64,000 nt of DNA from Methylomonas sp. ZR1 (GTDB taxonomy: Bacteria; Pseudomonadota; Gammaproteobacteria; Methylococcales; Methylomonadaceae): contig NZ_RCST01000001.1 of the NCBI RefSeq assembly GCF_013141865.1, positions 3,782,001 to 3,846,000 of the forward strand, written 5' to 3'. Under the pieces are notes generated by a model, which saw only the letters and a program-made list of their open reading frames with translations, searched no databases and was not told the DNA's origin. Made by a program: the position numbers and the translations under genes. Shown here one piece after another: positions 25,656-45,132 of the stretch. Each line of letters opens with the position of its first letter. The stretch's first letter is position 1.

Positions 25656-25732
25656 TTTGATTCTCCAGCGCTCCGATTGATAGAAGCGCTGGGCACAGGA
25701 GCGAAAAATATGCCTAACGCAGGTAAGCAAAG

Positions 25733-25763
25733 GCGCTTTGGTGGCTTCCAGAGGCCAAAGCGC
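25733..25763. repeat. 9-bp inverted repeat in the lipoprotein 5' region
   Basis: GCGCTTTGG (25733-25741) and CCAAAGCGC (25755-25763) form a stem with a 13-base loop, about 80 bases upstream of the 25655 start. It could be the terminator of the HAF-repeat gene or a leader structure of the lipoprotein mRNA. Confidence 0.5.
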
Positions 25764-25911
25764 TCAAGATTAACGCAGTGTTATGGGTTGTTTTTTTGCA
25801 GGCGCAGCCGATTGTCGCGTCCTCAGAACCCCGGCAACCTTGCTACATCCGGGTAACGAGCTGCTTGTCCAAGTTGCAGCTAAGCGTTAGCTCCACAACC
25901 GCCATGCGCTT

Positions 25912-29015: not shown

Positions 29016-30653
29016 TTATTTACGCAGGCGCTTATAAGCGTTGATCAAGCCGTTGGTGGAGCTGTCGTGGTCTGTGACCATCTCGTCGTTTTTCAGCTGC
29101 GGCAGAATCGCCCGCGCTAACACTTTCCCCAATTCCACACCCATTTGATCAAAGGAATTGATATTCCAGATCACGCCTTGTACGAAGATTTTGTGTTCGT
29201 AAAACGCAATCAAAGTACCCAAGGTTCTGGGGGTCAGTTTTTTGAATAAAAACGAGTTGGATGGCTTGTTGCCTTCGAAGATTTTGGAGGCAATCAGGGC
29301 GTCATCCAGATTAGGTTCATGGCTTAAATCCTCCCTAACCTCCGCTTCGGTTTTACCGCGCATCAGCGCTTCGGCTTGGGCCAGGAAGTTGGAAATCAGA
29401 ATATCGTGGTGGTCGGGTAAGTCGTATTGGCTTTGCGCGGCCGCCAGAAAGTCGCCGGGAATCAGTTTGGTGCCCTGATGAATCAATTGGAAAAAGGCAT
29501 GCTGGCCATTAGTACCGGGCTGGCCCCAGATAATCGGACCGGTGTTGTAATCGACTTTTTCACCGTTGATGGTAGCGCTTTTGCCGTTACTTTCCATATC
29601 GCCCTGCTGGAAATAATCGGCAAAATATTTCAAGGACTGCGCGTACGGCAGAATCGCGTAGGTTTCCGCTTCGAAGAAGTTGTTGTACCAGATGCCCAGC
29701 AAGCCCATGATGACCGGGATGTTTTTTTCGAATGGCGCACTGCGAAAATGTTCGTCGGCGATATGCGCGCCCATCAGCAATTCTTCGAAATTGTCCATGC
29801 CTATGTATAGGGCAATGGACATGCCGATCACGGACCACAGGGAATAACGGCCACCGACCCAATCCCAAAACTCGAACATGTTCTCCGGGTCTATGCCGAA
29901 TTCCTTGACCTTTTCGACATTGGTCGAGATCGCCACGAAATGTTTGGAAATATTGGCCGGGTCAACCGCAGCTTTTAAAAACCAGTTACGCGCCGACCGG
30001 GCGTTGGTCATCGTTTCCTGAGTCGTAAATGTTTTTGACGAGATCAAAAATAAGGTAGTCTCGGGGTTGAGCGGTTTCAGGGTTTCCACGATGTCGGTTT
30101 GATCAACATTCGAAACGAAGTGGGCTTTCAAACCGTCTTTACCGTAAGGCGCCAATGCAGTATCGACCATTTTCGGCCCCAAATCGGAACCGCCGATGCC
30201 GATGTTGACGATGTCGGTAATGGTTTTGCCGGTGTAGCCGGTCCAGGCACCGGAACGGACTTGTTCCGTAAATACCCGCATTTTCGCCAACACTTTATTA
30301 ATTTCCGGCATCACGTCCTTACCGCGAAACAATACCGGCTTGTTGCTGCGATTGCGCAAAGCGGTATGCAAGACAGCGCGTTTTTCCGTGGTGTTAATAA
30401 TGGAACCGGAAAACATGGCTTCGGTCTTGGCGGAAAGCTCCGCGCGGCTTGCCAATTCAATCAACAAAGGCAAAGTTTCTTCGGTAATTAGATTTTTAGA
30501 GAAATCGAACAGCAAATCGCCAAATGTCACGGAAAACTTGTCGAAGCGTTGCGGATCTTTATCGAACGCATCCTTCATGCAAAATTTGCCGGCAATCTCG
30601 CGGTGATGTTGCTTAACGGCATTCCATTCGGCAGAGTTTATTAATTTGGACAT
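29016..30653 (-). CDS. pgi: Glucose-6-phosphate isomerase
   Basis: A 545-residue enzyme that interconverts glucose 6-phosphate and fructose 6-phosphate. The full PGI fold is present: [33 protein letters not shown] (phosphate loop), [33 protein letters not shown] (PGI signature 1), and the late signature [12 protein letters not shown]. In a ribulose-monophosphate methanotroph, PGI also serves the formaldehyde-fixing hexulose cycle; that context is inferred. It is transcribed alone. Confidence 0.97.
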
Positions 30654-30966
30654 ATTGTTGTTATTTAATTAACCGGATAGGGGGGATATTTCAGTAGACC
30701 TGAACAGGCAGAGGCAATTTAAAGGGATGATTCATAACCCCATTATAAGGATTGTCTTTGATTGCTGACAAAAAAAATTACAGCTTGAATCGATCATCTC
30801 AACTACGGCACGATAGCCTTTCTTTGGCTAGGGCGATGTGCTAGAGTTAAGCGCTGTTTTGATCGAAATCAGGCAGTTACGTTCGCCAATGATTTAAACA
30901 TGTTCATGTATAACCACATGAAAAATAATAAAAACTACAGCATTTATTAACACGGGAAGGGTATTT
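30654..30966. other. Divergent promoter region, pgi / 30967 gene
   Basis: About 310 AT-rich bases between two divergent genes. It must contain both promoters. No tandem repeat or recognised operator was seen. An AAGGG ribosome site is present just before the 30967 ATG. Confidence 0.5.
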
Positions 30967-31560
30967 ATGAGAAGCTCTCGCATATTAAGAAACGGTTTAC
31001 TGGGCTTGTTGGGCCTGATTTTTTCATCAACAGTATTGGCACACGGTGGCGCCGCGGGTACTGATACTGACCAATGTAAGTTCGAACTGGAAAAAGATCA
31101 CTGGATCCATTACACCGCCTACCAGCCAAACGCATACCCGGCTGAAGAGTTCTGCGGCAATATTCCCGACATCAATTCGTTGACGCAATTGGTATTCGAC
31201 TATCAAGACCAACGCTATCGCGGCATGGCTATAGAATTTGAAGTGACCAAAGAGCCTGAAGGCAAACGGGTTTTCTTCCAAGCAGCCGAAAAACATAAAT
31301 CAGGCACCGTCATTCTGAACCTGCCACAAGGCGTGCCAGAAGCCGGCAAACATTTGATCCACATCACGCTACTGCAAGATAATGGCGAAAGATTGGATGC
31401 ACACATGAGCTTTAAAGCCGGTGCGGGTCAACCGACCAGCAAAGGTAGTTATGCCTTGTATGCATTGGTGTTGTTCGCTGGCTTGTACGTCCTTTATCTG
31501 TCTAACGCCGGTTTCAAACGCAAAGTTGACGGCATAATTGGTAAAGCGAAAGAAATCTAA
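30967..31560 (+). CDS. Exported C-terminally anchored protein of unknown function, copper-neighbour
   Basis: A 197-residue protein with a signal peptide ending at VLAHGG (the mature protein would begin with His). The mature part has a beta-rich region with two cysteines (QCKFELEKDHWIHYTAYQ, EEFCGNIPD) and a later strand set KHLIHITLLQDNGERLDAHM. A membrane helix (about 163-180, YALYALVLFAGLYVLYL) and a basic tail follow. No Pfam family was recognised. The N-terminal His and the adjacent cupredoxin gene suggest a periplasmic copper role, which is inference. Confidence 0.75.
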   Translation: MRSSRILRNGLLGLLGLIFSSTVLAHGGAAGTDTDQCKFELEKDHWIHYTAYQPNAYPAEEFCGNIPDINSLTQLVFDYQDQRYRGMAIEFEVTKEPEGKRVFFQAAEKHKSGTVILNLPQGVPEAGKHLIHITLLQDNGERLDAHMSFKAGAGQPTSKGSYALYALVLFAGLYVLYLSNAGFKRKVDGIIGKAKEI

Positions 31561-31579
31561 GAATTACGCCGCAAGAACC

Positions 31580-31611
31580 GTTATTCCGCCGATGCTGCGC
31601 GGCGGAATAAC
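31580..31611. terminator. Perfect 12-bp hairpin after the 30967 gene
   Basis: GTTATTCCGCCG (31580-31591) pairs exactly with CGGCGGAATAAC (31600-31611) around an eight-base loop, 20 bases after the stop. No T run follows, so it may weaken rather than end transcription into the cupredoxin gene. Confidence 0.55.
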
Positions 31612-31693
31612 GTCATTTCCGGCAGCCTTGTCAATCAGAACTATCGCGGCATAATCCACGCTATACACGAAGCCCCTTTGAGGTAATGCAATA

Positions 31694-32590
31694 ATGTTCA
31701 AATTCGTATCACTTGCCACACTGGTCTGCGCCTTATCTGTGACTGCTGCGTCCGCAAAAGAAATGCAGGATCACAATCAGATGATGAACCACGGCGACGG
31801 TCATTTGATGGATATGGATGGCGGCATGGTCATGGGCCAAAACACCGACACCTTGCCCGGCGGCTGCGACAAAATTGCCGAGACCAAGGAGATTACCGTG
31901 CATGCCGGGCACAAATATTCCGAGAAATTCCCCGGCACCATGTTTGCGTTCGATCAGCAGGAGTTTCAATTCGAACCTTGCACCAAACTGACTGTTCATT
32001 TCGTCAATGAAGATGAAATCCGTCATCAATGGATGATGCACGGCTTACCCAAATATTTGTACCCCAAAGGCATGTTCCATTTGGAAGTCAGCGGTCCCGG
32101 CAAAGTATCCGGCACGCTAATCCTACCGCCGGGCGACAAAACCTACTTAGTGCATTGCGACATCGCGCAGCACATGGAAAAAGGTATGAAAGCCCAATTG
32201 AAGGTCGGCAAAGGCAGCGAGGACTTGCCCAGCATTCCTGGGGTAACCGCGGCGATTTTCCCGGATGATTACAGCGGCAGACCCTACGATCCTAAACTCG
32301 ACGCGCCAGCCCCCAGCACTCCAGTGGCAGCCCCAGTAGTGGCAGCGGCACCCGTGCCTGTTGCCGCAGTCGATGATTCGATTGTTTCCGGCACCACCGT
32401 AGTCGGCTTGGCTATCGGTTTTATTGCCGCACCTTGGCTGGCAAAACGCTTTAAAGGCATGAGCGCCGGCGAAATTGTTGCTACCGTACTGGAGCAAGTC
32501 GCTCACGCTGTTGGCTATGTCATGCAACTGATCGGCAAGCTGATCAAAATGGTATCCGGCAAAAACGTCATCGCCTTACCGGACAAATAA
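31694..32590 (+). CDS. Periplasmic cupredoxin with Met/His-rich N-terminus and membrane anchor
   Basis: A 298-residue exported copper protein. After the signal peptide (cleaved near SAKEM) comes a Met/His-rich stretch (DHNQMMNHGDGHLMDMDGG) that could bind Cu(I). The cupredoxin domain (about 55-175) has a type 1 copper pattern: His in EIRHQWMMHGLP, then Cys, His and Met in VHCDIAQHMEKGM (C-x4-H-x4-M). A Pro/Ala/Val linker (about 203-228) leads to a C-terminal amphipathic or membrane segment (VVGLAIGFIAAPWLA). It follows the 30967 gene by 133 bp and would handle electron transfer or copper. Confidence 0.87.
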   Translation: MFKFVSLATLVCALSVTAASAKEMQDHNQMMNHGDGHLMDMDGGMVMGQNTDTLPGGCDKIAETKEITVHAGHKYSEKFPGTMFAFDQQEFQFEPCTKLTVHFVNEDEIRHQWMMHGLPKYLYPKGMFHLEVSGPGKVSGTLILPPGDKTYLVHCDIAQHMEKGMKAQLKVGKGSEDLPSIPGVTAAIFPDDYSGRPYDPKLDAPAPSTPVAAPVVAAAPVPVAAVDDSIVSGTTVVGLAIGFIAAPWLAKRFKGMSAGEIVATVLEQVAHAVGYVMQLIGKLIKMVSGKNVIALPDK

Positions 32591-32599
32591 AGACTAAGC

Positions 32600-32637
32600 A
32601 AAAAGCCCCTGAAACAGTAGTTTCAGGGGCTTTTTTT
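32600..32637 (+). terminator. Rho-independent terminator after cupredoxin gene
   Basis: AAAAGCCCCTGAAA and TTTCAGGGGCTTTT form a strong stem (32601-32614 with 32621-32634) around CAGTAG, ending in a run of seven T (32631-32637). It is ten bases after the cupredoxin stop and ends that unit. Confidence 0.92.
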
Positions 32638-32650
32638 ATGAGCCAAACAA

Positions 32651-33073
32651 ATGCAGTTAGAATCGCTCGGCCCTCTGGGATTATTTATCAGTGCTTTCAT
32701 TTCGTCCACCGTCGCACCCGGCGGTTCGGAAGCGGTACTGGCCTACCTGGTTAACAGCCAACAACATTCCGTCAGCCAGTTGGTGGCTATCGCCAGCATC
32801 GGCAACACCTTGGGCGCCATGACCACCTGGTGGTTGGGCCTGTGGGCCGCCAAAAAATATCCCGCCGAAGCTTTAGCCAAGCAACATCAAAAATCGCTAA
32901 ATACCGTGCGCCGCTGGGGCAGTTGGGCCTTGCTGTTTTCCTGGCTGCCGCTAGTCGGCGACGGCCTGTGTTTTGCCGGCGGCTGGCTACGCCTTTCCAT
33001 CCTATCCTCGCTGTTGACGATTTTTTTAGGTAAAGTGTTGCGTTATATCGCCGTTGCCTACGCCTTTGTCTAA
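32651..33073 (+). CDS. YqaA/DedA-like (VTT-domain) membrane protein
   Basis: A 140-residue membrane protein with three or four helices. The N-terminus MQLESLGPLGLFISAFISST plus VAPGGSEAVLAYL, and the middle ASIGNTLGAMTTWWLG, are typical of the YqaA (COG1238) branch of VTT/DedA transporters. The end WLPLVGDGLCFAGGWLRL keeps the P-x-x-G-D-x-x-C-F-A-G-G motif. It probably works in lipid transport, as inferred from the superfamily. Its start sits just after the terminator. Confidence 0.85.
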   Translation: MQLESLGPLGLFISAFISSTVAPGGSEAVLAYLVNSQQHSVSQLVAIASIGNTLGAMTTWWLGLWAAKKYPAEALAKQHQKSLNTVRRWGSWALLFSWLPLVGDGLCFAGGWLRLSILSSLLTIFLGKVLRYIAVAYAFV

Positions 33074-33076
33074 GCC

Positions 33077-33838
33077 ATGAGTTTGTTTTCCTTACCGCAC
33101 TTCCCCGCCGTCAATACAGTCGCTGAGCACAATAAACGCGATTATCAGATTGCCGCGTTTACCTTTGTCACCACCACCATCTGTTTGACGATGGATGGCT
33201 TCGCGCCGCAATTTATGCAATACGTTTTGGCGTTTTTCGGCTGGCTGTTTTTGATAGCCTGGCTGCGCGGCGAATGTAAGTATGTGCGCACCCAGGTGGC
33301 CGTGGCGGTAACCTTTGCGGTGATCGGCGAGTATTTCGCGTCCGTGTACATGAAAGGCTATATCTACCGCTTCGGTAATGTTCCGGCTTACGTACCGGCC
33401 GGCCACGGACTGGTGTATCTCACCGCCGTCGCATTGGGCCGCTCCGGACTATTTCAGCAACACGCCCGCCGCATTGCGGTTTTGGTTGTGGCGGCTTGCA
33501 GCACCTGGGTGGCATGGGGGTTGAGCGGCCTCGGGCGATTGGACATCATCGGCGCGGTGCTGTTTGTGGTGTTCTTGGGCTACTTGTTCAAAGGCCGCTC
33601 GCCGATGGTTTATCTGGGTGCGTTCTTCATCACCTCCTGGCTGGAAATCGTCGGCACCAGCGCCGGGACCTGGGCCTGGGCCGAGATTGATCCCGCCTCG
33701 CACCTGCCGCAAGGCAACCCGCCTAGCGGTGTAGCGGCTTGGTATTGCTTAGTCGATGCGGTGGCTATTGCCGGGGCGGGGCCGGTACTGCAGGCCTTCA
33801 CCAAAACAGCAATGGTGTTGCAGCGGCAAAGGGCTTGA
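33077..33838 (+). CDS. Conserved multi-pass membrane protein, unknown function
   Basis: A 253-residue protein with about seven membrane helices and no soluble domain. Conserved-looking spots are GFAPQFMQYVLAFFGW, VIGEYFASVYMKGYIYR with GNVPAYVPAGHGLVYL, and a late SWLEIVGTSAGTWAWAEI. The G-x-V-P-x-Y-V-P-x-G-H-G loop looks functional. I do not recognise the family. It starts three bases after the YqaA stop, so the two form an operon. Confidence 0.7.
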   Translation: MSLFSLPHFPAVNTVAEHNKRDYQIAAFTFVTTTICLTMDGFAPQFMQYVLAFFGWLFLIAWLRGECKYVRTQVAVAVTFAVIGEYFASVYMKGYIYRFGNVPAYVPAGHGLVYLTAVALGRSGLFQQHARRIAVLVVAACSTWVAWGLSGLGRLDIIGAVLFVVFLGYLFKGRSPMVYLGAFFITSWLEIVGTSAGTWAWAEIDPASHLPQGNPPSGVAAWYCLVDAVAIAGAGPVLQAFTKTAMVLQRQRA

Positions 33839-33888
33839 CCGTTGCAGGCTGAGTCGAGCGAAACGATACCCCGCAAAACGCCTTCAAT

Positions 33889-33915
33889 GCTGGGTTTCGC
33901 GCTGCTCAACCCAGC
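33889..33915. repeat. Intergenic palindrome of REP-like type
   Basis: GCTGGGTT (33889-33896) and AACCCAGC (33908-33915) with the loop TCGCGCTGCTC, followed by CTACATT. It lies between the convergent membrane-protein and MOSC genes. Palindromes of this wording recur in many proteobacterial genomes; here it probably also serves as a terminator. Confidence 0.5.
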
Positions 33916-33920
33916 CTACA

Positions 33921-34451
33921 TTATTCCACATGCCGGATCGCGTTCAAGCGCACCCGGTCACCCACCCGAATCAAACCCCCGGCCAAAATTCGCGCCGTCA
34001 TCCCACCATGTCCGCGTAGCGCGTTATAACTCCCCATCCCCAATTCCGCCGCCATTTTTGAGCACGGATCGCAAGGCCCGGTGACTTGAATAATCACCTC
34101 ATCGCCCACAGCCCATTCCAACATCACATCAGGAAACGGCGAACGCATACCGATAAGATTTAGTCCCGAAACCACTAGATTGCGCCGTAGCCGAGTCGGC
34201 TGCAATTCCGCGAGTCCGCACCAGTTGGCGACGATCGGTAAATGCTCGGCTTGAAACAAGGTCAGTTCGCGTTTTGCCGATTGCCGTCCGGAACGGGCTC
34301 CGTTGGCCCGGCGATCTCCCAATAACCCCTGCCCCGGCTCAGCCCGCACCTCGGCAACCGAAACAGCCGGTTTACCTCGCTCGGGACGCAGGATGATAGC
34401 TTCGATCCGGCCTTCCGAAGCGAATTGTTGAGTGAGATCGCGGAGAGTCAT
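33921..34451 (-). CDS. MOSC-domain protein
   Basis: A 176-residue protein that is almost only a MOSC domain, the fold at the end of molybdenum-cofactor sulfurase. It shows EAIILRPERGKP near the start, the glycine loop GQGLLGDR, SAKRELTLFQAEHL, RRNLVVSGLNL, and the cysteine motif VTGPCDPCSKM with the late GHGGMTARILAGG. The Cys in T-G-P-C is the proposed sulfur carrier. Its substrate is unknown; small MOSC proteins of this type include N-hydroxylated-base reductase partners (YiiM). Confidence 0.9.
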   Translation of the reverse strand: MTLRDLTQQFASEGRIEAIILRPERGKPAVSVAEVRAEPGQGLLGDRRANGARSGRQSAKRELTLFQAEHLPIVANWCGLAELQPTRLRRNLVVSGLNLIGMRSPFPDVMLEWAVGDEVIIQVTGPCDPCSKMAAELGMGSYNALRGHGGMTARILAGGLIRVGDRVRLNAIRHVE

Positions 34452-34679
34452 AATTGAACGTAGTGTTAGGACGATTTAATCTGAGGCGTAAAAGCGTAGC
34501 GTAATCGCTCTAATATGAAAAACTTCATTACCCCGGTGTCGAGCTTGCTAGTCGACGCTACGAGCCATTAGCCCTTTCAAGCTTGTGTATAATTCATAGC
34601 AGATAGACTCAGTTGGGAGCTATCGAGCCATTCGGAACGAACGGCTTCTCAAATATCAGCAAAGGATAATGACAATTCT

Positions 34680-35366
34680 ATGAATAAATTTCTTGCCGCC
34701 ACCCTTTTTGTCGCTAGCAACCTATTGGCTGGCTGCGTCGCAACCGGCGTCTATCAACCGCCGCAAGCGCCGCAAACCTTGGATTATTCTCGTGAAGTGA
34801 ATGCAGATTTCGACTCAACTTGGTCAACAATCACTAATGTCGCCGGCGCCACCTTCTTCAATATCAAAAACTTTGACAAGGGTAGCGGCTTGATGACTCT
34901 CGAATACGACAATATCCGTGGCAATATCGGCGCTTATGTCAATTGCGGAGAATTTGTAAGTAATCAAAGCGCCCAAAAGACTATCCATCCCGATCCCAAA
35001 TCGGTTATTAACTATATGACGATAAGCGACCTGATTATGCATCTTTCGGGCAGAGCCAATGTGATGGCTCGTCCAGTGGCAGATAACAAGACCCAGGTTC
35101 AGATCAACAGCCAATACACTTTGGTAATCGACAAAAAAATCGGCGACAAAGTCGAGCGGGTCGGCGTATGGAATTTCAGCTCCCGCGAACCGGACACACA
35201 AAAAGCCGATGTCAGTTATCGCCCAACCAATGTCACATGTCAGTCCTCTAACAAACTTGAAAACGACTTTTTAACCGAAGTTTCCGCGCGCCTGCCTTCG
35301 ACCGCAAGGCCAGAACCGGTTGCCGAGCCATCGGCGCCAAGCAAGAAAAAACGATCACGCAAATAA
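34680..35366 (+). CDS. Putative lipoprotein, unknown function
   Basis: A 228-residue protein with a lipoprotein signal (NLLAGCVATGVYQPP; lipobox LAGC). The mature domain begins with DADFDSTWSTITNVAG-like wording (here VNADFDSTWSTITNVAG), common in outer-membrane lipoproteins with a DUF3576- or YbbC-like sandwich, and ends in a Lys/Arg-rich tail (SKKKRSRK). No exact family was identified. A GC-rich hairpin follows its stop. Confidence 0.7.
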   Translation: MNKFLAATLFVASNLLAGCVATGVYQPPQAPQTLDYSREVNADFDSTWSTITNVAGATFFNIKNFDKGSGLMTLEYDNIRGNIGAYVNCGEFVSNQSAQKTIHPDPKSVINYMTISDLIMHLSGRANVMARPVADNKTQVQINSQYTLVIDKKIGDKVERVGVWNFSSREPDTQKADVSYRPTNVTCQSSNKLENDFLTEVSARLPSTARPEPVAEPSAPSKKKRSRK

Positions 35367-35377
35367 TTTGCAAGTCC

Positions 35378-35401
35378 AGGCTGCGGGGTTTTCCGCAGCC
35401 T
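35378..35401 (+). terminator. GC-rich hairpin after lipoprotein gene
   Basis: AGGCTGCGG (35378-35386) and CCGCAGCCT (35393-35401) around GGTTTT, eleven bases after the stop. No T run follows the stem, so it is a weak or Rho-assisted terminator. Confidence 0.55.
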
Positions 35402-35496
35402 AATTCCTACCTAAACCCAAAAATACTGCTTTTCGGCATTCACCAGTTATCGTCACACCGTCATTTCCGAATGAGTAAACCGCATTCCAATGCCGC

Positions 35497-35521
35497 GTGG
35501 GCACAAAAAGCATGTGCCCAC
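35497..35521. repeat. Perfect 9-bp inverted repeat at the edge of the cassette array
   Basis: GTGGGCACA (35497-35505) and TGTGCCCAC (35513-35521) around AAAAGCA. It directly abuts the degenerate end of the cassette array and marks the left boundary. Elements of this wording occur as scattered palindromes in many genomes. Confidence 0.6.
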
Positions 35522-35522
35522 C

Positions 35523-36233
35523 CTAGGCTAGCGTAGAGCTAAGCCGACCGCTGGAGCGCCATGTTATGCCTTTCGCTGATAGCATCCACGAAACCTGCGC
35601 ACTGGGGGGGTGCTCGCCATCGAAATAATCTTCCGCGTACTTTTCTGCAAAGCCTTGTGACTTCAATATGTCGATTTCTTTTCGCACAAGTGGCCAAGGC
35701 ATTGAGCCAGTTGATTCTGATTCATCCCTCAACCTAGCAATGAGCATAAGATAACCATCGAGCGAGACAAGCCCGCAAATTTGCTGTAATGCTTTAGTGC
35801 GCAACTCAGGCGGAAGCACTTGAAGCGTGTACGATTCGAGCACCAAATCAAAAGCCCCCTGCCAGTTATCAGGAGCTTGAAAAAGGTCGCAAACCACATA
35901 CTTGACATTGGTATTTGGAAACCGATTCCCACACTCGGAAATGGCGGTTGGCGAAATATCAAAAGCAGTCACGTCGAAGCCAAGGCAGGAAAGCCATTCT
36001 GCATCGTCACCTAAGCCGCACCCAATCTTCAAAGCCTTTTGCCCAAAAGTAAGAAGGTTGTTCGTTTTTTGAAATAGCTCAATCATGTTTGGATTTGGCG
36101 TATAGTCAGCCCACGGGATAGGAGTGCCGTCTGAACGGGCTTTGGCATATAGCTGTTCAAACCAATCAAGGGGATGTCCTGCGGAGATTGCTATCTGAGC
36201 CAATTGTCTTGCTAAAGCGCGATGATTATCCAT
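35523..36233 (-). CDS. Cassette-borne class I SAM-dependent methyltransferase
   Basis: A 236-residue methyltransferase. Motif I is KALKIGCGLGDDAEWLSCLG, with G-C-G-x-G and a following acidic FDVTAFDISPTAI, which binds S-adenosylmethionine. Motif IV is FDLVLESYTLQVLPPE. The substrate is unknown; the relation is to small-molecule methylases (Methyltransf_11/25). It is the last (leftmost) of three integron cassettes. Its start is 14 bases after a recombination core, GTTATGC. Its last 15 residues are encoded by attC sequence (GITWRSSGRLSS), so the original stop was probably earlier or the site has decayed. Confidence 0.88.
   Translation of the reverse strand: MDNHRALARQLAQIAISAGHPLDWFEQLYAKARSDGTPIPWADYTPNPNMIELFQKTNNLLTFGQKALKIGCGLGDDAEWLSCLGFDVTAFDISPTAISECGNRFPNTNVKYVVCDLFQAPDNWQGAFDLVLESYTLQVLPPELRTKALQQICGLVSLDGYLMLIARLRDESESTGSMPWPLVRKEIDILKSQGFAEKYAEDYFDGEHPPSAQVSWMLSAKGITWRSSGRLSSTLA
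35526..35570 (-). other. Degenerate attC site (left end of cassette array)
   Basis: On the minus strand the site opens with GGCATAAC (35570-35563), the exact inverse of the GTTATGCC at the other end of the same cassette. ATGGCGCTCCAGCGG, a common attC left-arm wording, follows. It ends near GCTAGCC (35532-35526), where a good site would have GTTAGCC: one T to C change in the core. At 45 bases it is shorter than the usual minimum of about 57, so it has probably lost part of its stem. Confidence 0.65.
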
Positions 36234-36246
36234 GAGCTTATCTGTG

Positions 36247-36307
36247 GCATAACGCCTAGCTAAGGGGCGCGCAGCGAAGCGTCGCCTTGAGCGCAGTGTT
36301 GAAAGGC
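36247..36307 (-). other. attC recombination site between cassettes 1 and 2
   Basis: Read on the minus strand: GCCTTTCAAC (36307-36298), then an imperfect stem with CAAGGCGACGCTTCGC, then GCGCCCCTTAGCTAGGC and the core GTTATGC (36253-36247). The length (about 61 bases), the imperfect hairpin with unpaired bases and the G|TTRRRY-type right core match attC sites of integrons. The methyltransferase ATG follows 14 bases later. Confidence 0.85.
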
Positions 36308-36664
36308 TTGGTTGATGGCTTGCTTTTTGTATCTGGTAACAAAATCTTTTGCCTCATCAAGTGATTCTGGGTAAGAGATTTTATAGTAGCCTCCATCCTC
36401 ACGCTGCTCATAGACTGAATGAAATAGGAATCCATGCTCCACGAGATATTTGACTTTATCCCATTGCGCTTTATCTGCGGCTTTCGGAGCGGAAAACTTT
36501 CGGTTGACCTCGATCAATGTGCCACCACATTCTGGGCAAATTCTTGAGATTGAAGATTGAGGTTTCTTAAAGCTCTTTCTGCATTTAAAGCATAAATTCG
36601 GAAAGAGATAGCTCTGTATATGCTTGTCTTTTTGAAAGTAGCTGTGATGCTTGAACTTACCCAT
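36260..36664 (-). CDS. Cassette-borne zinc-ribbon protein, unknown function
   Basis: A 134-residue protein. Two CxxC pairs (NLCFKCRKSFKKP, ICPECGGTL) form a zinc ribbon at residues 25-48. After it comes a domain with FSAPKAADKAQWDKVKYL, HGFLFHSVYEQRE and YYKISYPESLDEAKDFV. I have no named family for it, but similar proteins are often met in integron cassettes. It has no signal peptide. Its last codons and stop lie inside the downstream attC site, as is usual for a cassette gene. Confidence 0.78.
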   Translation of the reverse strand: MGKFKHHSYFQKDKHIQSYLFPNLCFKCRKSFKKPQSSISRICPECGGTLIEVNRKFSAPKAADKAQWDKVKYLVEHGFLFHSVYEQREDGGYYKISYPESLDEAKDFVTRYKKQAINQAFQHCAQGDASLRAP

Positions 36665-36676
36665 GACTCTGAAAGC

Positions 36677-36742
36677 CTTTAACGTGAAAGTGAGCGGCCT
36701 GCGCGGCTTTTCGCGCAGGTCCGCTCGACTGCTGGGTTAGAG
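36677..36742 (-). other. attC recombination site between cassettes 2 and 3
   Basis: On the minus strand: CTCTAAC (36742-36736), CCAGCAGTC, then the stem GAGCGG-A-CCTGCGCG with loop AAAAGC and CGCGCAGG-CCGCTC, then ACTTTCAC and the core GTTAAAG (36683-36677). The stem pairs 6 plus 8 bases with a single unpaired base at 36720. This is the classical folded attC with an extrahelical base. The zinc-ribbon ATG follows 12 bases later, and the DUF2283-like gene's TAA lies in the left core. Confidence 0.92.
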
Positions 36743-37069
36743 CACACTTGCATCTCTTAGCTCGCTAACGAAGTCTGAACGGTCGAGAAACTCAACGCCA
36801 AAAACGTTTCCGTCGTGATCGAGATCGACGTTGAAGCCGACCTCAAGGAAAGGCAGGGTCTTCGCAATCGGCGCGGAGAGATTGGCGAAATGCGCGCTCG
36901 GCTTAGGACTGACAAAATATACGTACCCAGCCTCAGCATCGTCGTCGTAGGTGCAACGCTCAATTTCTCCGCTTTCAACCTGCGAGGCGGCAGATTCGTA
37001 GCCTGCGCTAGCGAGAGCAGACCTTACCTCGGACATCAGTGTCGGTGCGGCGGATGCAAGGGGAGTCAT
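36737..37069 (-). CDS. Cassette-borne DUF2283-like protein
   Basis: A 110-residue protein. The second half has the DUF2283 pattern: CTYDDDAEAGYVYFVSP, a later strand, and VDLDHDGNVFGVEFLDR, where the D-x-D-x-D-G-x-x-x-G-x-E-F-L motif is distinctive. The N-terminal 35 residues are helical and Ala-rich. DUF2283 proteins are small beta proteins of unknown function. The gene is flanked by exact 12-bp inverted repeats (GTTAGAGCACAC at both ends, in opposite sense), as expected for an integrated cassette whose two half-sites come from one circle. Confidence 0.78.
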   Translation of the reverse strand: MTPLASAAPTLMSEVRSALASAGYESAASQVESGEIERCTYDDDAEAGYVYFVSPKPSAHFANLSAPIAKTLPFLEVGFNVDLDHDGNVFGVEFLDRSDFVSELRDASVL

Positions 37070-37074
37070 GTGTG

Positions 37075-37081
37075 CTCTAAC
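37075..37081 (-). other. Right-end core of the cassette array
   Basis: On the minus strand, GTTAGAG (37081-37075) followed by CACACATG is a G|TTRRRY-type core just before the DUF2283-like ATG. No full attC is visible upstream, so this is either the junction with a lost attI or an old boundary. It matches, in inverse sense, the core at 36736-36742. Confidence 0.65.
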
Positions 37082-37100
37082 AAGTAATTAAGTAGTTTCT

Positions 37101-37128
37101 GTATATCATCCAGGACGCGATGATATAC
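37101..37128. repeat. Perfect 10-bp inverted repeat right of the cassette array
   Basis: GTATATCATC (37101-37110) and GATGATATAC (37119-37128) around CAGGACGC. It lies 20 bases outside the cassette array, on the valS side. It does not have attC cores. It may be a regulator site or a terminator-like structure that isolates the array from valS. Confidence 0.6.
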
Positions 37129-37322
37129 GCTCGTGCGTGACGCTAACAATAATTTTCCTGCGCCAAAGCAAGCATCCTGTCTCCGATAGGCAGGTCACTG
37201 CCAAACAGAAAAATTCGGCAACAGCCAACCGATCCCTCGAATCGCCTTTAACTCTATCCCGCCGCGCATTTACGGTTAAAATACCACCCCTAATTTAAAC
37301 CCAAGCGCATCCGACACAAAAC

Positions 37323-40130
37323 ATGGAAAAAACCTATTGCCCGCACGCTATCGAACAACGCTGGTATCAACTTTGGGAAGAGAGTGGCTACTTCGCGACC
37401 AAGCAAGATGGCGACTCCTATTGCATCATGATTCCGCCGCCCAACGTCACCGGCAGTTTGCATATGGGGCATGCGTTTCAGGACACCATCATGGATGCGC
37501 TGACCCGTTATCACCGCATGAAAGGTTACAACACCCTGTGGCAACCGGGCACCGATCATGCCGGCATCGCCACGCAAATGGTGGTGGAACGCATCATCAA
37601 CGCCGACGGTAAAACCCGCCACGACTTGGGCCGCGAGGCGTTTATCGAGAAAGTCTGGGAATGGAAGGAAGAGTCCGGCGGCACCATCACCCGACAATTG
37701 CGGCGGATGGGTTCGTCGCTGGATTGGGAGAAGGAGCGCTTCACCATGGACGACGGCATGTCCGATGCGGTGCAGGAAGTGTTCATCAAATTGTACGAAG
37801 AAGGCCTGATTTATCGCGGCAAACGTCTGGTGAACTGGGATCCGGTGCTGCACACCGCTGTTTCCGACCTGGAAGTGCTGTCGGAAGAAGAAAACGGCTC
37901 GATGTGGTATATGCGCTACCCGTTGACCAACGGCACCGGCCACTTATTGGTGGCAACCACCCGTCCGGAAACCCTGCTCGGCGACGCGGCAGTGGCGATT
38001 CATCCCGATGACGAGCGTTACAAACATCTGCTCGGCGAATTCGTCGAATTGCCGCTGACTGGTCGCCGCATACCGATCATAGCCGATGAATATGTCGATC
38101 CGGAATTCGGTACCGGCTGCGTGAAAATCACGCCGGCCCACGATTTCAACGACTACGAAGTCTGGTCGCGGCATAAACAAATATCCGCCATCGCCGACCT
38201 GCCGCACGGCGGCTTGATCAACATCTTTACCGTCGATGCGGCGATTCGCGGCAACGATGATGGCTTTACCATTATTCCTGACGCCTATATTGGCCTGGAC
38301 CGCTTCGAAGCGCGCAAGAAAATCGTTGCCGATTTGGACGCACAAGGCCTACTGGAAAAAATCGCCGACCATAAATTGATGGTGCCGCGCGGCGACCGTA
38401 CCGGCGCTGTGATCGAGCCTTTATTGACCAATCAGTGGTACGTGAAAATCGAACCGTTGGCCAAGCCGGCCATCGAAGCCGTCGAAACCGGCGCCATCAA
38501 ATTCGTGCCGGACAACTGGAAAAACACCTATTTCGAATGGATGCGCAACATCCAGGACTGGTGCATCTCCCGGCAAATCTGGTGGGGCCACCGGATTCCG
38601 GCCTGGTACGACGATCAGGGCAATACATACGTCGGCCATAATGAAGCCGAAATCCGCACCACGCATGGCTTGGCCGCCGATTATCCGTTGAAGCAGGACG
38701 AAGACGTGTTGGACACCTGGTTCTCGTCGGCGCTATGGCCGTTCTCGACGCTGGGTTGGCCGGAGCAAACCCCGGAATTGGCGAAACATTACCCGACCAG
38801 CGTATTGGTCACCGGCTTCGACATCATTTTCTTCTGGGTGGCAAGGATGATCATGATGGGCCTGAAATTCCAGGGCGAAGTACCGTTTAAGGAAGTGTAC
38901 ATTCACGGTCTGGTCCGCGACGCGGAAGGCCAGAAAATGTCTAAATCCAAAGGTAACGTGCTAGACCCTATCGACATCATCGACGGCATCGATTTGGAAG
39001 CCTTGGTAGCTAAACGGGTGTCCGGCATGATGCAGCCGCATCTGGCCAAAAAAATCGAACAAGCCACCCGCAAGCAATTCCCGGACGGCATTCAATCGTT
39101 CGGCACTGACGCGCTACGTTTTACCTTTGCGTCGCTGGCTTCGACCGGCCGCGACATTCGCTTTGACTTGCAGCGTACCGAAGGCTATCGCAACTTCTGC
39201 AACAAATTGTGGAACGCCGCGCGTTACGTGCTGATGAACACCGAAGACCAGGATAACGGCATCGATTGCGCGGAATGCACATACAGCCAGGCCGACTTGT
39301 GGATTCTGTCCAGATTGAACCGCACCATCGCAACGACTACCGATGCGATCAACAGCTATCGATTCGATTTGGCCGCGCAAGCCATCTACGAATTCACCTG
39401 GAACGAATACTGCGACTGGTATCTGGAGCTGGCGAAAATCTCGCTGCAAAGCGACGACGAAACCTTGCAACGCGGCACGCGCCAAACTTTATTGAAAGTA
39501 CTGGAAACCGTGTTGCGTTTGGCGCATCCGATCATGCCCTTCATCACCGAGGAAATCTGGCAACGGGTTGGCCCGCTGGCCGGTGTCACCGCAGCGACTA
39601 TCATGCTGCAGCCTTACCCGGAAAGCGATAGCACGGCTATCAACACCGACGCGGAAACCAAAATCCAATGGACGATGGACTTCATCCTTGGCATCCGCCG
39701 CATTCGTGGCGAGATGAATATCGCCCCCGGTAAGCCGCTGAATGTGTTACTGCAAAACGGCAGCGACACCGATCAAGCTTATTTGAAAGACAGCGAAAGT
39801 TATCTGCTGAAACTGGGCCGCCTGGAAAGTATTACCTGGCTGGCGGCGGACGACGACGCGCCGGAATCGGCGATTGCGCTGGTCGGCGACATGAAAATCC
39901 TGATCCCGATGGCCGGTTTGATCGACAAAGACGCCGAATTGGCGCGCCTGGACAAGGAAATTCAGCGCATCGAAAAGGAACTGCCGCGTATCGAAGGCAA
40001 ATTGAGCAATGCCGCCTTCGTCGACAAAGCTCCGCCGGAAGTCATCGACAAAGAGCGCGAGAAACTGGCCGGTTTACAATCATCATTGACGAATCTGAAG
40101 GAACAGTACGCCAAGATCAAAGCCCTGTAG
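37323..40130 (+). CDS. valS: Valyl-tRNA synthetase
   Basis: A 935-residue class I synthetase that charges tRNA-Val. The ATP signature is [15 protein letters not shown] (HMGH as the HIGH motif, about residues 37-51). The editing domain (CP1) lies in the middle. The second signature is [14 protein letters not shown] (KMSKS). The anticodon-binding helices follow, and the C-terminal coiled-coil arm ([20 protein letters not shown]) is typical of ValS. It is the first gene of a run; the HDOD gene starts nine bases after its stop. Confidence 0.98.
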
Positions 40131-40138
40131 TGTAAGCC

Positions 40139-41578
40139 ATGAATCCGGCTCCCCCACAAAAGCCACCGCAAACTCTGGACGAATGGACAGAGCTACTCCG
40201 CGTGCAGGAAATGCCGATTTTCTCCAACACCGCGCATAATATCTACGCGGCGTTGGACGACAGGCACAAGGGGGCCATCGAGCTGGCGACGGTAATTCTG
40301 CAAGACCCCAACCTCACCGCCAAGCTGCTTAAGGTGGGCAGCAGCCCTTACTACAATCCATCGAAACAAAAGATGAGCACCGTATCGCGCGCCATCGTGG
40401 TATTGGGCGCGGAGGTGATCAGAGAGCTGACGCTGGCTTGCTCGTTTTTCGAAGCGATGCTGTCGTCCACCAACAAGGACAGGGCTAATCGAGAAATTGC
40501 GTTAGCCTTGCATGCCGCCGTGCAGGCCAAGGATTTGGCGCTCAGCATGGGAGATACCTCGCCCGAGGAAGTGTTTGTCGCGGCGCTACTGCACAATATC
40601 GGCCACATTGCCTTCTGGTGCTCCGGCAATCCGCAATCCAAAAAAGTCCATGAGCAAATCGAAAAAAGCGGCCTGAACAATCGCGAAGCTGAGAAAAAAA
40701 TACTGGGCTTCACCTTGCAAGACTTGGGCAAAAAGCTCAGTAAATCCTGGAGCCTGGGCGGCCTGATAGAAGACGCCATCGCCAAGCCGGATTCCGCGGA
40801 AAAACGGGTGCAAATGGTGCAACTAGGGCATCAGATTTGCTTGGCTCTAAAAGCCGGCCGCGATTCAGACGCCATGCGGGTTTGTCTGCAGAAAGTCGCC
40901 GCATTCACCGGCCTGCCAACGGAAACCCTGAAAACAAAGATCGACAAAAACACCTCGGAAGCCGTGCATATCGCCCGCCAGTTTGGCGCCAACGATGCCT
41001 CCAAATTCATCAGCACCGAAGCCATCATTGCCAAATTCGAAGACGCTGAAGAGGAAAAGGCCGACAAGAAACAGCTGCAATTTCAAATTTTGCAAGACAT
41101 CAGTAGCCACATCAGCGGGCAAATCGATCTAAACGGCCTGTTTGAAATGGTGCTGGAAGGCATACATCGTGGCGTAGAAATGGACAGAACTTTGTTCATG
41201 CTGCTCAGTCCGGATAAACAGACGCTAAACGAAAAATTTTCCTTAGGCTGGCATAAAATCGGGCTTGACCAAAAAATCCGTATTTACAATTCCGAACCGT
41301 CCGCGAACTTACTGTTTCACGCCTTGCAACAGCAAGAAGGCGTCTGGCTGTTTCCCCAGCAGCATCGCGAGCTTTACACGCCGCAAATCCGCCAGCATAT
41401 CGGCGATTACGAGTGCTTTGTTTTCCCGGTTTATGCGGAGAAAAAGACCGTGGGCCTCATTTATTGCGACCATTCTATTCATGGACTACCCTTAACGCGC
41501 GAGGACTTCACCGCAGCCAAGCATTTTGCCAAACAAGCGCATATCGGCTTAACCCTATACTGCATGAAAAACCACTAA
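40139..41578 (+). CDS. HDOD-domain protein with C-terminal GAF-like domain
   Basis: A 479-residue signalling protein. The HDOD domain (about residues 15-240) shows LRVQEMPIFSNTAHNIYAAL, DPNLTAKLLKVGSSPYYNP and a degenerate HD segment (FVAALLHNIGHIAFWC). HDOD proteins lack phosphodiesterase activity but bind partners in second-messenger and motility pathways. A GAF-like sensor domain follows (about 310-475; LNGLFEMVLEGIHRGVEMDR, then YECFVFPVYAEKKTVGLIYC). It is closely followed by the two-receiver gene (three bases), so it is part of one signalling operon. Confidence 0.88.
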   Translation: MNPAPPQKPPQTLDEWTELLRVQEMPIFSNTAHNIYAALDDRHKGAIELATVILQDPNLTAKLLKVGSSPYYNPSKQKMSTVSRAIVVLGAEVIRELTLACSFFEAMLSSTNKDRANREIALALHAAVQAKDLALSMGDTSPEEVFVAALLHNIGHIAFWCSGNPQSKKVHEQIEKSGLNNREAEKKILGFTLQDLGKKLSKSWSLGGLIEDAIAKPDSAEKRVQMVQLGHQICLALKAGRDSDAMRVCLQKVAAFTGLPTETLKTKIDKNTSEAVHIARQFGANDASKFISTEAIIAKFEDAEEEKADKKQLQFQILQDISSHISGQIDLNGLFEMVLEGIHRGVEMDRTLFMLLSPDKQTLNEKFSLGWHKIGLDQKIRIYNSEPSANLLFHALQQQEGVWLFPQQHRELYTPQIRQHIGDYECFVFPVYAEKKTVGLIYCDHSIHGLPLTREDFTAAKHFAKQAHIGLTLYCMKNH

Positions 41579-41581
41579 TCC

Positions 41582-42376
41582 ATGACAGACTATCAGCTTG
41601 CCAATCTTCAGGTTTTTCTCGTCGAGCCGTCGCATACTCAGCAGCAAATCATTTCCCATTTTTTACATGCTTGCGATATCAACGACATTACCTGCCTAAA
41701 TACCGGCGCGGAGTTGTTCGAGCGTTTACAGCACTCCCGGCCCGATCTGATTATCAGCTCGATGTATTTGCCCGACATGACCGGCGTGGAGTTGGTAACC
41801 TCGCTTCGCAAACACGACGAGTCCTACGAAATGGCCTTTTTGCTGATTTCCAGCGAGACCAATATCAAATATCTGGAACCGATCCGCCAGGCCGGGGCCA
41901 TCGCCATATTACCCAAGCCGTTTACCCGTCAGGCCCTGGAAACCGCCCTGCATTCCACGCTGGAGTATGTTCGCCCGGAAAAACTTAACCTCACCCATCT
42001 GGACATAGAGGACCTGAGCGTGCTGCTGGTAGACGACAGCGAATTCTCGTTGAAATACTTGACCCGGGTTTTCGAAAATATTGGCGTTGGGCAAATTGTG
42101 ACCGCGCATGACGGCAAACAAGGGCTGCAAATGTTCAATCAGCAGTATTTCGATCTGGTAGTCACCGACTACAACATGCCGCAGATGGATGGCCTACAAC
42201 TGGTCGATCACATTCGCAACCATTCCGAACGCGGCTCGGTACCTATTTTGATGGTCACCAGCGAGCAAAATGAAAGCCGCCTGGCGGCCATCGAAAAATC
42301 CGAAGTCTCCGCCATACTAGACAAGCCCTTCGAAGCCACTTCAATCAAGCGCCTTCTGATTAATTTGCTCAATTGA
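41582..42376 (+). CDS. Double receiver-domain response regulator (first receiver degenerate)
   Basis: A 264-residue protein with two CheY-like domains and no output domain. The second (about 140-262) is complete: VLLVDDSEFSLKYL, acceptor Asp in DLVVTDYNMPQMDG, and Lys in LDKPFE. In the first (about 10-125) the acceptor position reads DLIISSMYLPDMTG, where Ser replaces Asp, and the acidic pocket reads VEPSHT. It is therefore probably not phosphorylated and may serve as a dimer or docking unit. The partner kinase is not in the operon. Confidence 0.9.
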   Translation: MTDYQLANLQVFLVEPSHTQQQIISHFLHACDINDITCLNTGAELFERLQHSRPDLIISSMYLPDMTGVELVTSLRKHDESYEMAFLLISSETNIKYLEPIRQAGAIAILPKPFTRQALETALHSTLEYVRPEKLNLTHLDIEDLSVLLVDDSEFSLKYLTRVFENIGVGQIVTAHDGKQGLQMFNQQYFDLVVTDYNMPQMDGLQLVDHIRNHSERGSVPILMVTSEQNESRLAAIEKSEVSAILDKPFEATSIKRLLINLLN

Positions 42377-42533
42377 GCTAATCTTGTGTGGCGAGCGAAT
42401 ACCCCACAATATGCACGGCTATGAGAATCCCGGATCGAACCAATGTCCGATGCGGCCATGATCGAGCTCATCCGGTTTTCGCGCAAAATATGCCAGGACT
42501 GACCACCAATAGCCCCAAATTAAGGTACGGAAT

Positions 42534-43073
42534 ATGAAGCCGACTATCACGCCTAACAATAACGAAAAAAAACTCGCGGACGATGATTTTATCGTTTCCA
42601 AGACCGACACCTCTGGGCGGATCACTTACGCTAATCGCATTTTTATGGAAATCGCCGGCTATCCGGAACACCAATTGCTGGGCATACAGCACAACATCAT
42701 CCGACACCCTGACATGCCGCGCGGCGTGTTCAGATTTATGTGGAATACCTTAAAAGCCGGTGACGAGTTTTTCGGGTTTGCCAAAAATCTATGCCGGGAT
42801 GGCGGATTTTATTGGGTATTTGCCAACATTACGCCGGATTATGACAAGGACGGTAAATTGCAGGGTTACTATTCGGTGCGCCGTAATCCGCCCCGTAACG
42901 CACTGGGGGTCATCATACCGATTTATCAGGAAATGTTGGCCATCGAGAAACGCCATTCAGTCAAAGATGCCCCGGATAAATCGCTGGAATACCTATTTGA
43001 CGTGGTTCAGCAATCCGGCGCTAAAAATTACAATAGCCTTGTGCTAAGCCTTTACAAGCCCAACGGAGTGTAA
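42534..43073 (+). CDS. Aer-type PAS-domain protein
   Basis: A 179-residue protein. Residues 15-125 are a PAS domain with the Aer pattern: FIVSKTDTSGRITYANRIFM, IAGYPEHQLLGIQHNIIRHP, then DMPRGVFRFMWNTLKAGDEF and WVFANITPDYDKDGKLQGYY. Aer PAS domains bind FAD and sense redox or oxygen. The C-terminal 50 residues form helices that may contact the receptor. The chemoreceptor gene starts three bases later, so sensing and signalling halves are on two genes. Confidence 0.9.
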   Translation: MKPTITPNNNEKKLADDDFIVSKTDTSGRITYANRIFMEIAGYPEHQLLGIQHNIIRHPDMPRGVFRFMWNTLKAGDEFFGFAKNLCRDGGFYWVFANITPDYDKDGKLQGYYSVRRNPPRNALGVIIPIYQEMLAIEKRHSVKDAPDKSLEYLFDVVQQSGAKNYNSLVLSLYKPNGV

Positions 43074-43076
43074 GCC

Positions 43077-44546
43077 ATGAATTCAAATGCCAATATTCCG
43101 TTTTTAAGAACCAAGCTGAATTATGCGGTGGCAGCCGTTATATTTTTTACCGTTGCGGCATTCGTCTACACGCTTATCACGCATGGCTTTTCCTGGCTCA
43201 TGCTTGGCTTGCTGCTGCCGTTGCCGGTGATAGCTCTGGATGCCTGGCACGCCGGCAAACAATGCCTGCTGGTATTAGAGCGTATAGAAGAAGTGCTGAG
43301 ACACACTAATCAAGGCCAACTCTATCATCGCGTCACCAAAACGCGAGGCATGGGCGAAGTCGGCAAAATAGCCTGGGAGCTCAATGAAACCCTGGACATC
43401 ATGGAGTCTTACTTCAAAGAAATGAACTCCTGTTTCCAGCACGCAGCCGAAGGCAATTATGACCGTTATGCCTTGGTTGACGGCTTTCCGGGCATACTGA
43501 AAAAATCGGCGAAGAATATGAACGACGCCATCAAATTAATGGATGAAAACGACAAATTAACGATCAAGCGGCGTTTATCGGCCGGTCTGCATGCGCTCAA
43601 CACCAACAATCTGCTCAACAATCTGAAAGGTAATCAGAGCGACTTGCTCAATATCACCGAGCAAATGCAGAAAGTAGAAAATATTGCTGTGGAAACGGGT
43701 GAAAACGCCAACGCCAGCCTATCCGCCGTCGAAACCATCAGCAACTCCCTGTCCGACATCAATGCCAATGTACATTCGGTGTCGGATGTGATCGGTGCGC
43801 TGATTAACGACAGCAAAAAAATTACTGAATCCTTATCGATGATTACCGGAATTGCCGATCAAACCAACCTGCTGGCCTTAAACGCCTCCATAGAAGCGGC
43901 ACGCGCCGGCGAGCATGGACGGGGCTTCGCGGTAGTCGCGGACGAAGTCAAAAATCTCTCCGAGCATACCAAGAACGCCGCGTTGGAAGTCTCCAGAACA
44001 TTGAAATCGTTTAATAAACGAGTCGAACAAATGCAAATCGAGGCTGAAAGTTCGTCATCGCTGTCGCAAGAGATACTGGCTCAGGTCAACTCCTTCCGCC
44101 AGCAGTTTTCCAATCTCTCGCAGTCGGCAAAAATTTCGGTCGATTACATTTCTTATGCCAAAGACAAATCCTTCGGCGTCCTGGCCAAACTGGATCATGT
44201 GGTTTACAAACAAAACGGCTATGTGGCGATAGAAACCTTCAGCGAGTGTCCGCATCACCAAGCGATCATGGTAGACAACCATAATTGCCGGTTAGGAAAA
44301 TGGTATTACGAAGGACTGGGCTATGAAAAATTCCGCTCGACCAGCGCTTACGCCAAATTGAATCAGCCGCATGCAGAGGTGCATAGGACGACGCAAAAGG
44401 CTTATGAAGTCTCTCGATCCAAATGGGTGGATGATCCAGGCATGCTTGATGAGATCATTCGGCAAATGCAACTGGCCGAGGCCGCCAGCGCCGAGGTGAT
44501 GCAGTATATCGACGCGATGGTGGAAGAAAGGCATAAAAACATATAG
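43077..44546 (+). CDS. Methyl-accepting chemotaxis protein with C-terminal CZB zinc-sensor domain
   Basis: A 489-residue receptor. Two N-terminal membrane helices (about residues 15-58) have almost no periplasmic loop. A linker holds HAMP-like helices, then comes the signalling hairpin tip [19 protein letters not shown] followed by [20 protein letters not shown]. The C-terminal CZB domain has His in [12 protein letters not shown], Cys in [12 protein letters not shown], and His pair HAEVH in [11 protein letters not shown], the C/H set that binds zinc. CZB receptors sense zinc or hypochlorous acid. Without a periplasmic sensor domain, it may rely on the PAS protein and CZB for input. Confidence 0.94.
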
Positions 44547-44616
44547 TCCACCGCTTTACAGAATCGCATAGCGCAAGTCGCTTCGGTGCAAAGCGCAGCA
44601 ACATGCACTGAGCTGC

Positions 44617-45132
44617 CTAACTTCCCAAATATTCCACCGTCACTTCCGCTAATCCGTGCATACCGATCTGTTCCGCCGCGCCCTGGGACAGATCGATAAG
44701 TCGATTAGCCTTGAATGGCCCCCTGTCGTTGATCACCACATCCACAAAACGGCCGTTACGCAGATTGGTAACCCGAACTTTAGAGGGAATCGGCAGCGTT
44801 TTATGCGCCGCCGTCATGCCGCGCGGATCGAAGCGGTCGCCATTGGCCGTAAAATTACCGGATTCTGCGCCATACCAGGAAGCCAAGCCCTGCGCTTTGT
44901 ACCCTAGCGCGCTGTGCAGCGGGGAATAAGTTTTACCTTTGACTTTATAGGATTTGGTGTAAGTCGTCTTAGTCGTACCGGTCAGCACGGCTTGATCGTC
45001 AGTGCGTTGCAGCGTCGGAACACTGGAACAGGCACTAAGTAGACTAATAAACATCAGCGGCATAACTGTATGCCATCGCCGCACGTTGAGGCTAAATCGG
45101 CTTGAAAAAACCGATACCGTGTTTAAGAACAT
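44617..45132 (-). CDS. rlpA: RlpA-like septal ring lytic transglycosylase, lipoprotein
   Basis: A 171-residue protein. The start at 45132 is chosen for GGAGAAAC eight bases upstream. The signal region ends in the lipobox LLSACSS. The double-psi beta-barrel holds the RlpA pattern: GLASWYGAESGNFTANGDRF, MTAAHKTLPIPSKVRVTNL and VVINDRGPFKANRLIDLSQG. RlpA cleaves glycan strands lacking peptides and localises to the division septum. The SPOR domain of longer RlpA proteins is absent, so this is the short form. It is transcribed alone. Confidence 0.92.
   Translation of the reverse strand: MFLNTVSVFSSRFSLNVRRWHTVMPLMFISLLSACSSVPTLQRTDDQAVLTGTTKTTYTKSYKVKGKTYSPLHSALGYKAQGLASWYGAESGNFTANGDRFDPRGMTAAHKTLPIPSKVRVTNLRNGRFVDVVINDRGPFKANRLIDLSQGAAEQIGMHGLAEVTVEYLGS

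Follow-up and report, generated by a model that had tools for sequence, protein, structure and literature searches.

Integrons are usually pictured as one integrase, one attI site and one array of gene cassettes, and a set of cassettes beside valS, in a genome where no integron integrase passes the family cut-off, raises the question of how it came to be there. The locus lies in a 64,000-nucleotide stretch of Methylomonas sp. ZR1 (contig NZ_RCST01000001.1, positions 3,782,001 to 3,846,000; hereafter the window), in which three small open reading frames (ORFs), all on the minus strand between 35523 and 37069, form three gene cassettes. Judged from sequence, this array is probably an orphan three-cassette set seated on one of many dispersed, fixed attI-type docking sites and loaded in trans by a rare long integron integrase, IntI-L, found in relatives.

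Three cassettes without an integrase

The three co-oriented small genes described in an initial annotation of the window were borne out. Cassette 1 (36683-37080, minus strand like all parts of the array), running from TT to the G of the first attC site (attC2), carries a DUF2283-domain protein of 110 aa (36737-37069; Pfam PF10049, 27 bits against a cut-off of 23); cassette 2 (36253-36682) carries a zinc-ribbon-like protein of 134 aa (36260-36664), for which every Pfam match fell under its cut-off; and cassette 3 (35532-36252) carries a SAM (S-adenosylmethionine)-dependent methyltransferase of 236 aa (35523-36233; PF13649, 46 bits). The pairing of start and end half sites claimed for each cassette is real in two of them: it is exact in cassette 1, where a 12-mer is identical throughout (GTTAGAGCACAC and GTGTGCTCTAAC), and exact across 8 bases in cassette 3 (GTTATGCC and GGCATAAC), while in cassette 2 there is one added base (GTTAAAGGC and GCCTTTCAAC). 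Among 67 comparable cassettes drawn from 77 sites of the kind described below (those with a G before the cut and a reading frame of 80 aa or longer that starts no more than 60 nt from it, cassette 1 of the window included), 34 had a start that agreed with the cassette's own end in at least 8 of 10 bases, a level reached by 8.6% of cross pairs, and the mean match of 6.72 lay above the maximum of 5.85 reached in 5000 permutations.

Because a folding-based attC finder proved insensitive (for the 77 sites it gave 14 matches in the cassette-side sequence and 0 in that on the attI side), we built a covariance model from attC sites of relatives, using 16 of 22 listed candidates and none from the window, and ran it unfiltered over all 64 kb; the candidates had been picked for pairing, and their covariation is thus no independent evidence. 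The two best matches in the whole window were attC2 (36676-36743; 61.4 bits, E 3.1e-14), which has an extrahelical A, and attC1 (36246-36308; 29.2 bits, E 1.4e-5), coinciding with the attC-like sites proposed at 36677-36742 and 36247-36307. The score of attC2 was helped by the training set, two of whose 16 members (L066:9022 and L048:8683; G and L numbers are our handles for genomes and loci) closely resemble it, and its core is almost identical to an attC in an integron of G117 (L066) and to that of a zinc-ribbon cassette in G116 (L067). The degenerate end site placed at 35526-35570 fared less evenly: recovered here at 35525-35570 with R' = GCTAGCC, it is plausible by half-site pairing and by eye looks like the attC ends of other sites, but it scored 11 bits (E 1, rank 7 of 11), which is not significant alone. 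Single-strand DNA folding, which the initial annotation had put forward as a check, backed one site of three, with z-scores of -4.3 and -5.4 for attC2, 0.1 for attC1 and -0.06 and 0.35 for the terminal site, the latter two being no better than shuffles. The unremarkable folding of attC1 would suit a reading in which the three genes make up a common operon or genomic island, with terminators in place of attC hairpins, but that reading is barely credible against the covariance-model matches, the half-site pairing and the occurrence of relatives of each gene as cassettes elsewhere.

Those relatives, found by a search whose reported matches are DNA loci, adjoin attC or attI-like sites for all three cassettes, which are mobile gene cassettes by this criterion. 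For the DUF2283 protein it is a 75% identical protein of Methylocucumis oryzae (L305), encoded by the cassette next to an attI-type site; for the zinc-ribbon protein, one of 50% identity in the genus member G116 (L067), a cassette in the same position at another attI-type locus; and for the methyltransferase, one of 79% identity in G174 (L069), directly behind an attC scoring 46 bits. When a 3.5-kb stretch was compared with 37 genomes of the genus, none of the matches listed spanned all three genes, and the arrangement that had been named as speaking against an array of cassettes, the same three genes in the same order in relatives without the sites, was not seen among them.

The absence of an integrase from the window also held, and extends to the genome: in 5.18 Mb on 2 contigs (100% complete), no integron integrase exceeded the TIGR02249 cut-off, and the search gave nine weak matches, the two best genes being XerD and XerC. 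Such integrases are common in the order, where 106 of 201 genomes have a match above this cut-off. With two significant attC sites, called by a model from relatives, and no integron integrase nearby, the evidence supports the array as a CALIN, an integrase-less attC cluster, in a Methylomonas-type methanotroph, in agreement with the initial annotation; two attC sites are the threshold for that class (PMC9024848). The label is right but incomplete, since the first cassette abuts a dispersed attI-type docking site.

Four smaller observations concern the array and its components. A second attC-like pair in the host genome (G000:C1:4167999-4168717, L221; E 4e-9 and 7e-4) marks another integrase-less array; the 10 kb compared with the site profile there gave no match, and the nearest resemblance is partial and 21 nt long. 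In the window, a further attC candidate at 25711-25787 (E 0.19) was taken as a chance match, its neighbours being ordinary genes. No Rfam family matched within the array when 30000-45000 of the window was scanned. Among PADLOC defence models, mad2 weakly matches the methyltransferase gene (35523-36233) at 47.5 bits, which probably reflects no more than a shared methyltransferase fold.

Fixed docking sites with changing cassettes

What sets the start of this array apart is the sequence in front of it. Cassette 1 begins G/TTAGAGC at 37081/37080 (the slash marking the cut), a G/TTRRRY crossover joined to a first cassette as expected of an attI; read in the direction of the cassette, the sequence before it is GATATACAGAAACTACTTAATTACTTG. 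Together with the TTA after the cut, GATATACAGAAACTACTTAATTACTTG forms the core of an attI-type site at 37078-37111 (minus strand), the sole copy in the window (E 4.4e-12), with the cut between 37081 and 37080. Across 56 distinct sites the motif spans about 31 bp and holds about 45 bits over 30 positions, with little common sequence beyond -31; the sites were first found by likeness to the window copy, so that this information content is inflated, and the same bias is carried by the pattern and model searches below. Two sites, L200 (in which the G is not followed by TT) and L162 (another genus), were kept in the 45-bit count and in the 77-site ORF test, L200 also among the 67 cassettes, and were omitted from the sequence-only model, built from 54 of the 56.

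Beyond the core, ATATAC repeats occur at -95 to -36 in 18 of 49 representatives of flank families, where other flank windows predict 0.5; GGAAAA is present in 13 of the 49, against an expectation of about 1. The full site may therefore span about 95 bp with two GATATAC-type repeats, as at the IntI-L locus; the window copy has the near repeat only, while many other copies show a second one at about -95. In attI1, additional integrase-binding repeats lie upstream. A separate proposal, that the 62-66 bp to the left of some copies are a mini-cassette, was rejected, the leftward similarity being better fitted by an extended two-repeat attI.

The motif is widespread among relatives of the host, and its copies occupy many unrelated places in the chromosome besides valS. 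At E 0.1 or below the sequence-only model matched 31 of the 37 genus genomes, including eight matches in the host, four of which were inspected; at E 0.001 or below it matched 62 of the 201 order genomes, 57 of them in the host's family, and copies number from one to fourteen per genome. A strict pattern of 50 bits, with fewer than 0.001 chance matches calculated for 257 Gb, was found in 29 stretches among 84,980 species, carried by methanotrophs, Nitrosomonas (7 stretches), two metagenome-assembled genomes (MAGs) of Competibacteraceae and one unassigned proteobacterial MAG; one of our samples, of 12 genomes, was chosen for holding this pattern. No strict-pattern copy was found in viral contigs. 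A cassette-like gene follows most of the sites: a G before the cut, together with a reading frame of 80 aa or more beginning no further than 60 nt from it, was present at 67 of the 77 sites and at 37 of 108 control GTTA positions. We used this stricter test since a loose one (40 aa or more, no further than 90 nt away) did not discriminate, with 74 of 77 sites and 76 of 108 controls passing.

Clustering of the attI-side flanks grouped the 77 sites into 49 families, and for eight groups chosen from an earlier flank grouping we compared the cassette sides. In seven of these (valS, FKBP, TusA-like, ABC transporter, AMP-ligase, L170 and helicase) both flanks are common between species, and the chromosomes become homologous again beyond a differing stretch of 0.6-3.5 kb; in the eighth, NDH, just short pieces match within the stretch compared. 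Flanks that are kept while cassettes differ indicate shared docks with exchanged cassettes. The valS site itself is found in five genomes (the host, G040, G178, G076 and G086) with five different contents. Its near flank is valS (37323-40130, plus strand), the start codon of which lies 242 nt from the window cut, and its far flank is a MOSC-domain gene (33921-34451, minus strand), both conserved; the same motif lies 242-243 nt from valS in G040, G178 and G076 and 292 nt away in G086, with differing cassettes. Degraded versions of the motif occupy this locus in G174 and G188, and in G122 the MOSC and valS genes stand 198 bp apart with no motif. The position of the array at valS is thus explained by the conserved attI-type site next to its first cassette, and a conserved sequence of this kind explains more generally why arrays appear at the same places in different species.

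These observations bear on whether the cassettes landed at random GTT positions through off-target integrase activity. Insertions at such attG sites have been reported for IntI1 and Escherichia coli (Loot 2024, as cited in PMC12901181 and PMC12444791) and, like the docks described here, they are genomic places that take up cassettes outside an integron. However, attG sites diverge from classical att sequences, and those in E. coli are broadly distributed (PMC12901181, PMC12444791, from the portions available), whereas the motif copies are long and conserved, resemble the attI of IntI-L, share about 45 bits of common sequence and recur at the same loci in several species. We consider an attG-like origin highly improbable.

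A long integrase as the likely source

The motif has a counterpart beside an integrase gene. IntI-L, 462-518 aa long from the chosen ATG where most other IntI frames are about 330-380 aa, is an integron integrase over residues about 142 to 461, and in G116 it scores 374.9 bits against TIGR02249, passing the curated cut-off of 265. That portion resembles ordinary IntI proteins (TIGR02249; IntI4 structure 2a3v), from which IntI-L differs by a second, N-terminal core-binding-like domain (residues about 1-89) and a linker; the AlphaFold model was poor overall (predicted template modelling score, pTM, 0.27), and residues 1-89 alone were used. The motif core lies 126-132 nt upstream of the gene in all 11 of the IntI-L genes examined, from three lineages, its letters having been taken gene by gene. 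The motif adjoins IntI-L in G116, G252 and G215, and in G116 an attC array does so too. Read from its position and letters, the motif is the attI-type sequence of IntI-L, and IntI-L is a putative recombinase of attC sites. No such integrase gene adjoins the motif in this window or genome, and we accordingly file the window copy as attI-type, rather than as a full integron's attI. The added core-binding-like domain is a candidate reader of the longer site.

Clear IntI-L was found in one of 85 genomes of the Nitrosomonas genus (G252:C46, L355). Over residues 136-461 it shares 75% identity with the copy in Methylomonas, a likeness that suggests horizontal transfer.

Could the sites instead belong to another recombinase, a short IntI or one that went unseen, with the match at the IntI-L locus reflecting no more than a common attI core? 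Short IntI genes are the commoner kind in the genus (with G116 set aside, 11 of 29 genomes match IntI at 1e-60), and by eye the core TAATNA..G/TT is partly common to the attI of one short type. Yet the motif adjoins IntI-L in three lineages and was not found beside short IntI genes, its BLAST search over 34 integrase loci matching the IntI-L locus (L124) alone; on this ground the narrower proposal, that it is the attI of the genus's ordinary integrase of about 330 aa, was rejected. Those attI regions of ordinary IntI that could be read by eye differ from the motif (15 upstream stretches, some short or unclear). Another recombinase is, in our judgement, distinctly unlikely.

A different possibility is that a complete IntI-L integron once inserted at each dispersed site and later lost its integrase gene, leaving a stump, CALINs then being degraded integrons, as has been proposed for them (PMC9024848). 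At 4 of the 77 sites, intact (L124) or remnant IntI-L (L162, L266 and L277) does lie on the attI side, at most 3 kb away, and some copies match the IntI-L locus over up to about 95 bp of attI leader. The other 73 sites have no trace of IntI-L beside them (median 1.6 kb on that side), a gene in several families ends 38-88 nt before the cut, which leaves no room for a lost integrase, and little common sequence extends beyond about -31 when averaged over sites. This history is unlikely as a general account, though it deserves more weight than the alternatives above. The short remnants beside attI-type sites at L266 (G113) and L277 (G149) are themselves decayed IntI-L loci.

We return to docking sites served in trans, the account that we consider probable. 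IntI-L would act on all attI copies of a chromosome, and attC circles would enter and leave them as they do in an ordinary integron; one enzyme would thus serve a chromosome-wide set of docks, with the cassettes expressed from nearby promoters; a promoter scan gave one weak sigma-70-like match (37149-37120, minus strand), and one match against 0.5 in shuffles is no evidence for a promoter here. No IntI-L was found in the host genome, and the array would now be frozen unless an integrase arrives. Generalised to what might be called a polysite integron, the scheme holds that, in three or more proteobacterial lineages, integrases of a family with doubled core-binding domains have spread copies of their attI over many fixed chromosomal positions, where they load and exchange cassettes in trans, integrase-less arrays being outlying docks and not relics; we rate this wider version somewhat better than an even bet.

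Relation to known systems and neighbouring features

In the text available to us, PMC9024848 counts 2961 CALINs against 2760 complete integrons and describes attI sites as poorly characterised outside class 1. The window array resembles a CALIN in its two significant attC sites, its co-oriented small genes and the lack of an integrase over the cut-off, and differs in beginning at an attI-type site common to many loci, where the CALIN definition, as given in that text, names no attI. The Xanthomonas CALINs of PMC12444791 likewise lack an integrase and occupy matching chromosomal positions in several species; there intI lies at one locus, ilvD, and the accessible part of the paper names no docking motif, whereas the loci described here bear attI-type copies. 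Delta-attI cassettes, known from class 1 and 2 integrons (PMC12901181), also place pieces of attI away from intI and beside cassettes, but in the account available the attI piece replaces the attC at a cassette end within an array, while here the attI copy is the chromosomal start of the array. Secondary sites that resemble attI are able to recombine (PMC10127599), IntegronFinder has been used to list integrons of Methylococcus (PMC8527097), and the accessible text of PMC3414803 mentions long N-terminal extensions for other tyrosine recombinases only. We found no description of dispersed attI-type docks or of an IntI with two core-binding domains in the open PMC literature, subscription papers lying outside that scope.

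The findings suggest that one integrase can maintain many docking sites, and they make testable whether CALINs are living parts of such a system and how attI comes to be copied. The motif also offers a means of finding attI sites.

The far end of the array is marked by a REP-like hairpin repeat, GTGGGCAC...GTGCCCAC (35497-35521), which has many copies in genomes of the genus; by eye, several other arrays likewise end near REP-like repeats. At 32541-32638 (plus strand) there are weak matches to amino-acid-operon leaders, all below their gathering scores, the best being His_leader with 33.4 of 49 bits. Between the array and the MOSC gene sits a lipoprotein-like ORF (34680-35366, plus strand); a protein search of 121 order genomes found relatives in two genus members only, at 75% identity in G113, elsewhere on the chromosome, and at 33% in G117, and DNA relatives of 73-75% identity occur also in G204 and G182 among the 37 genus genomes.
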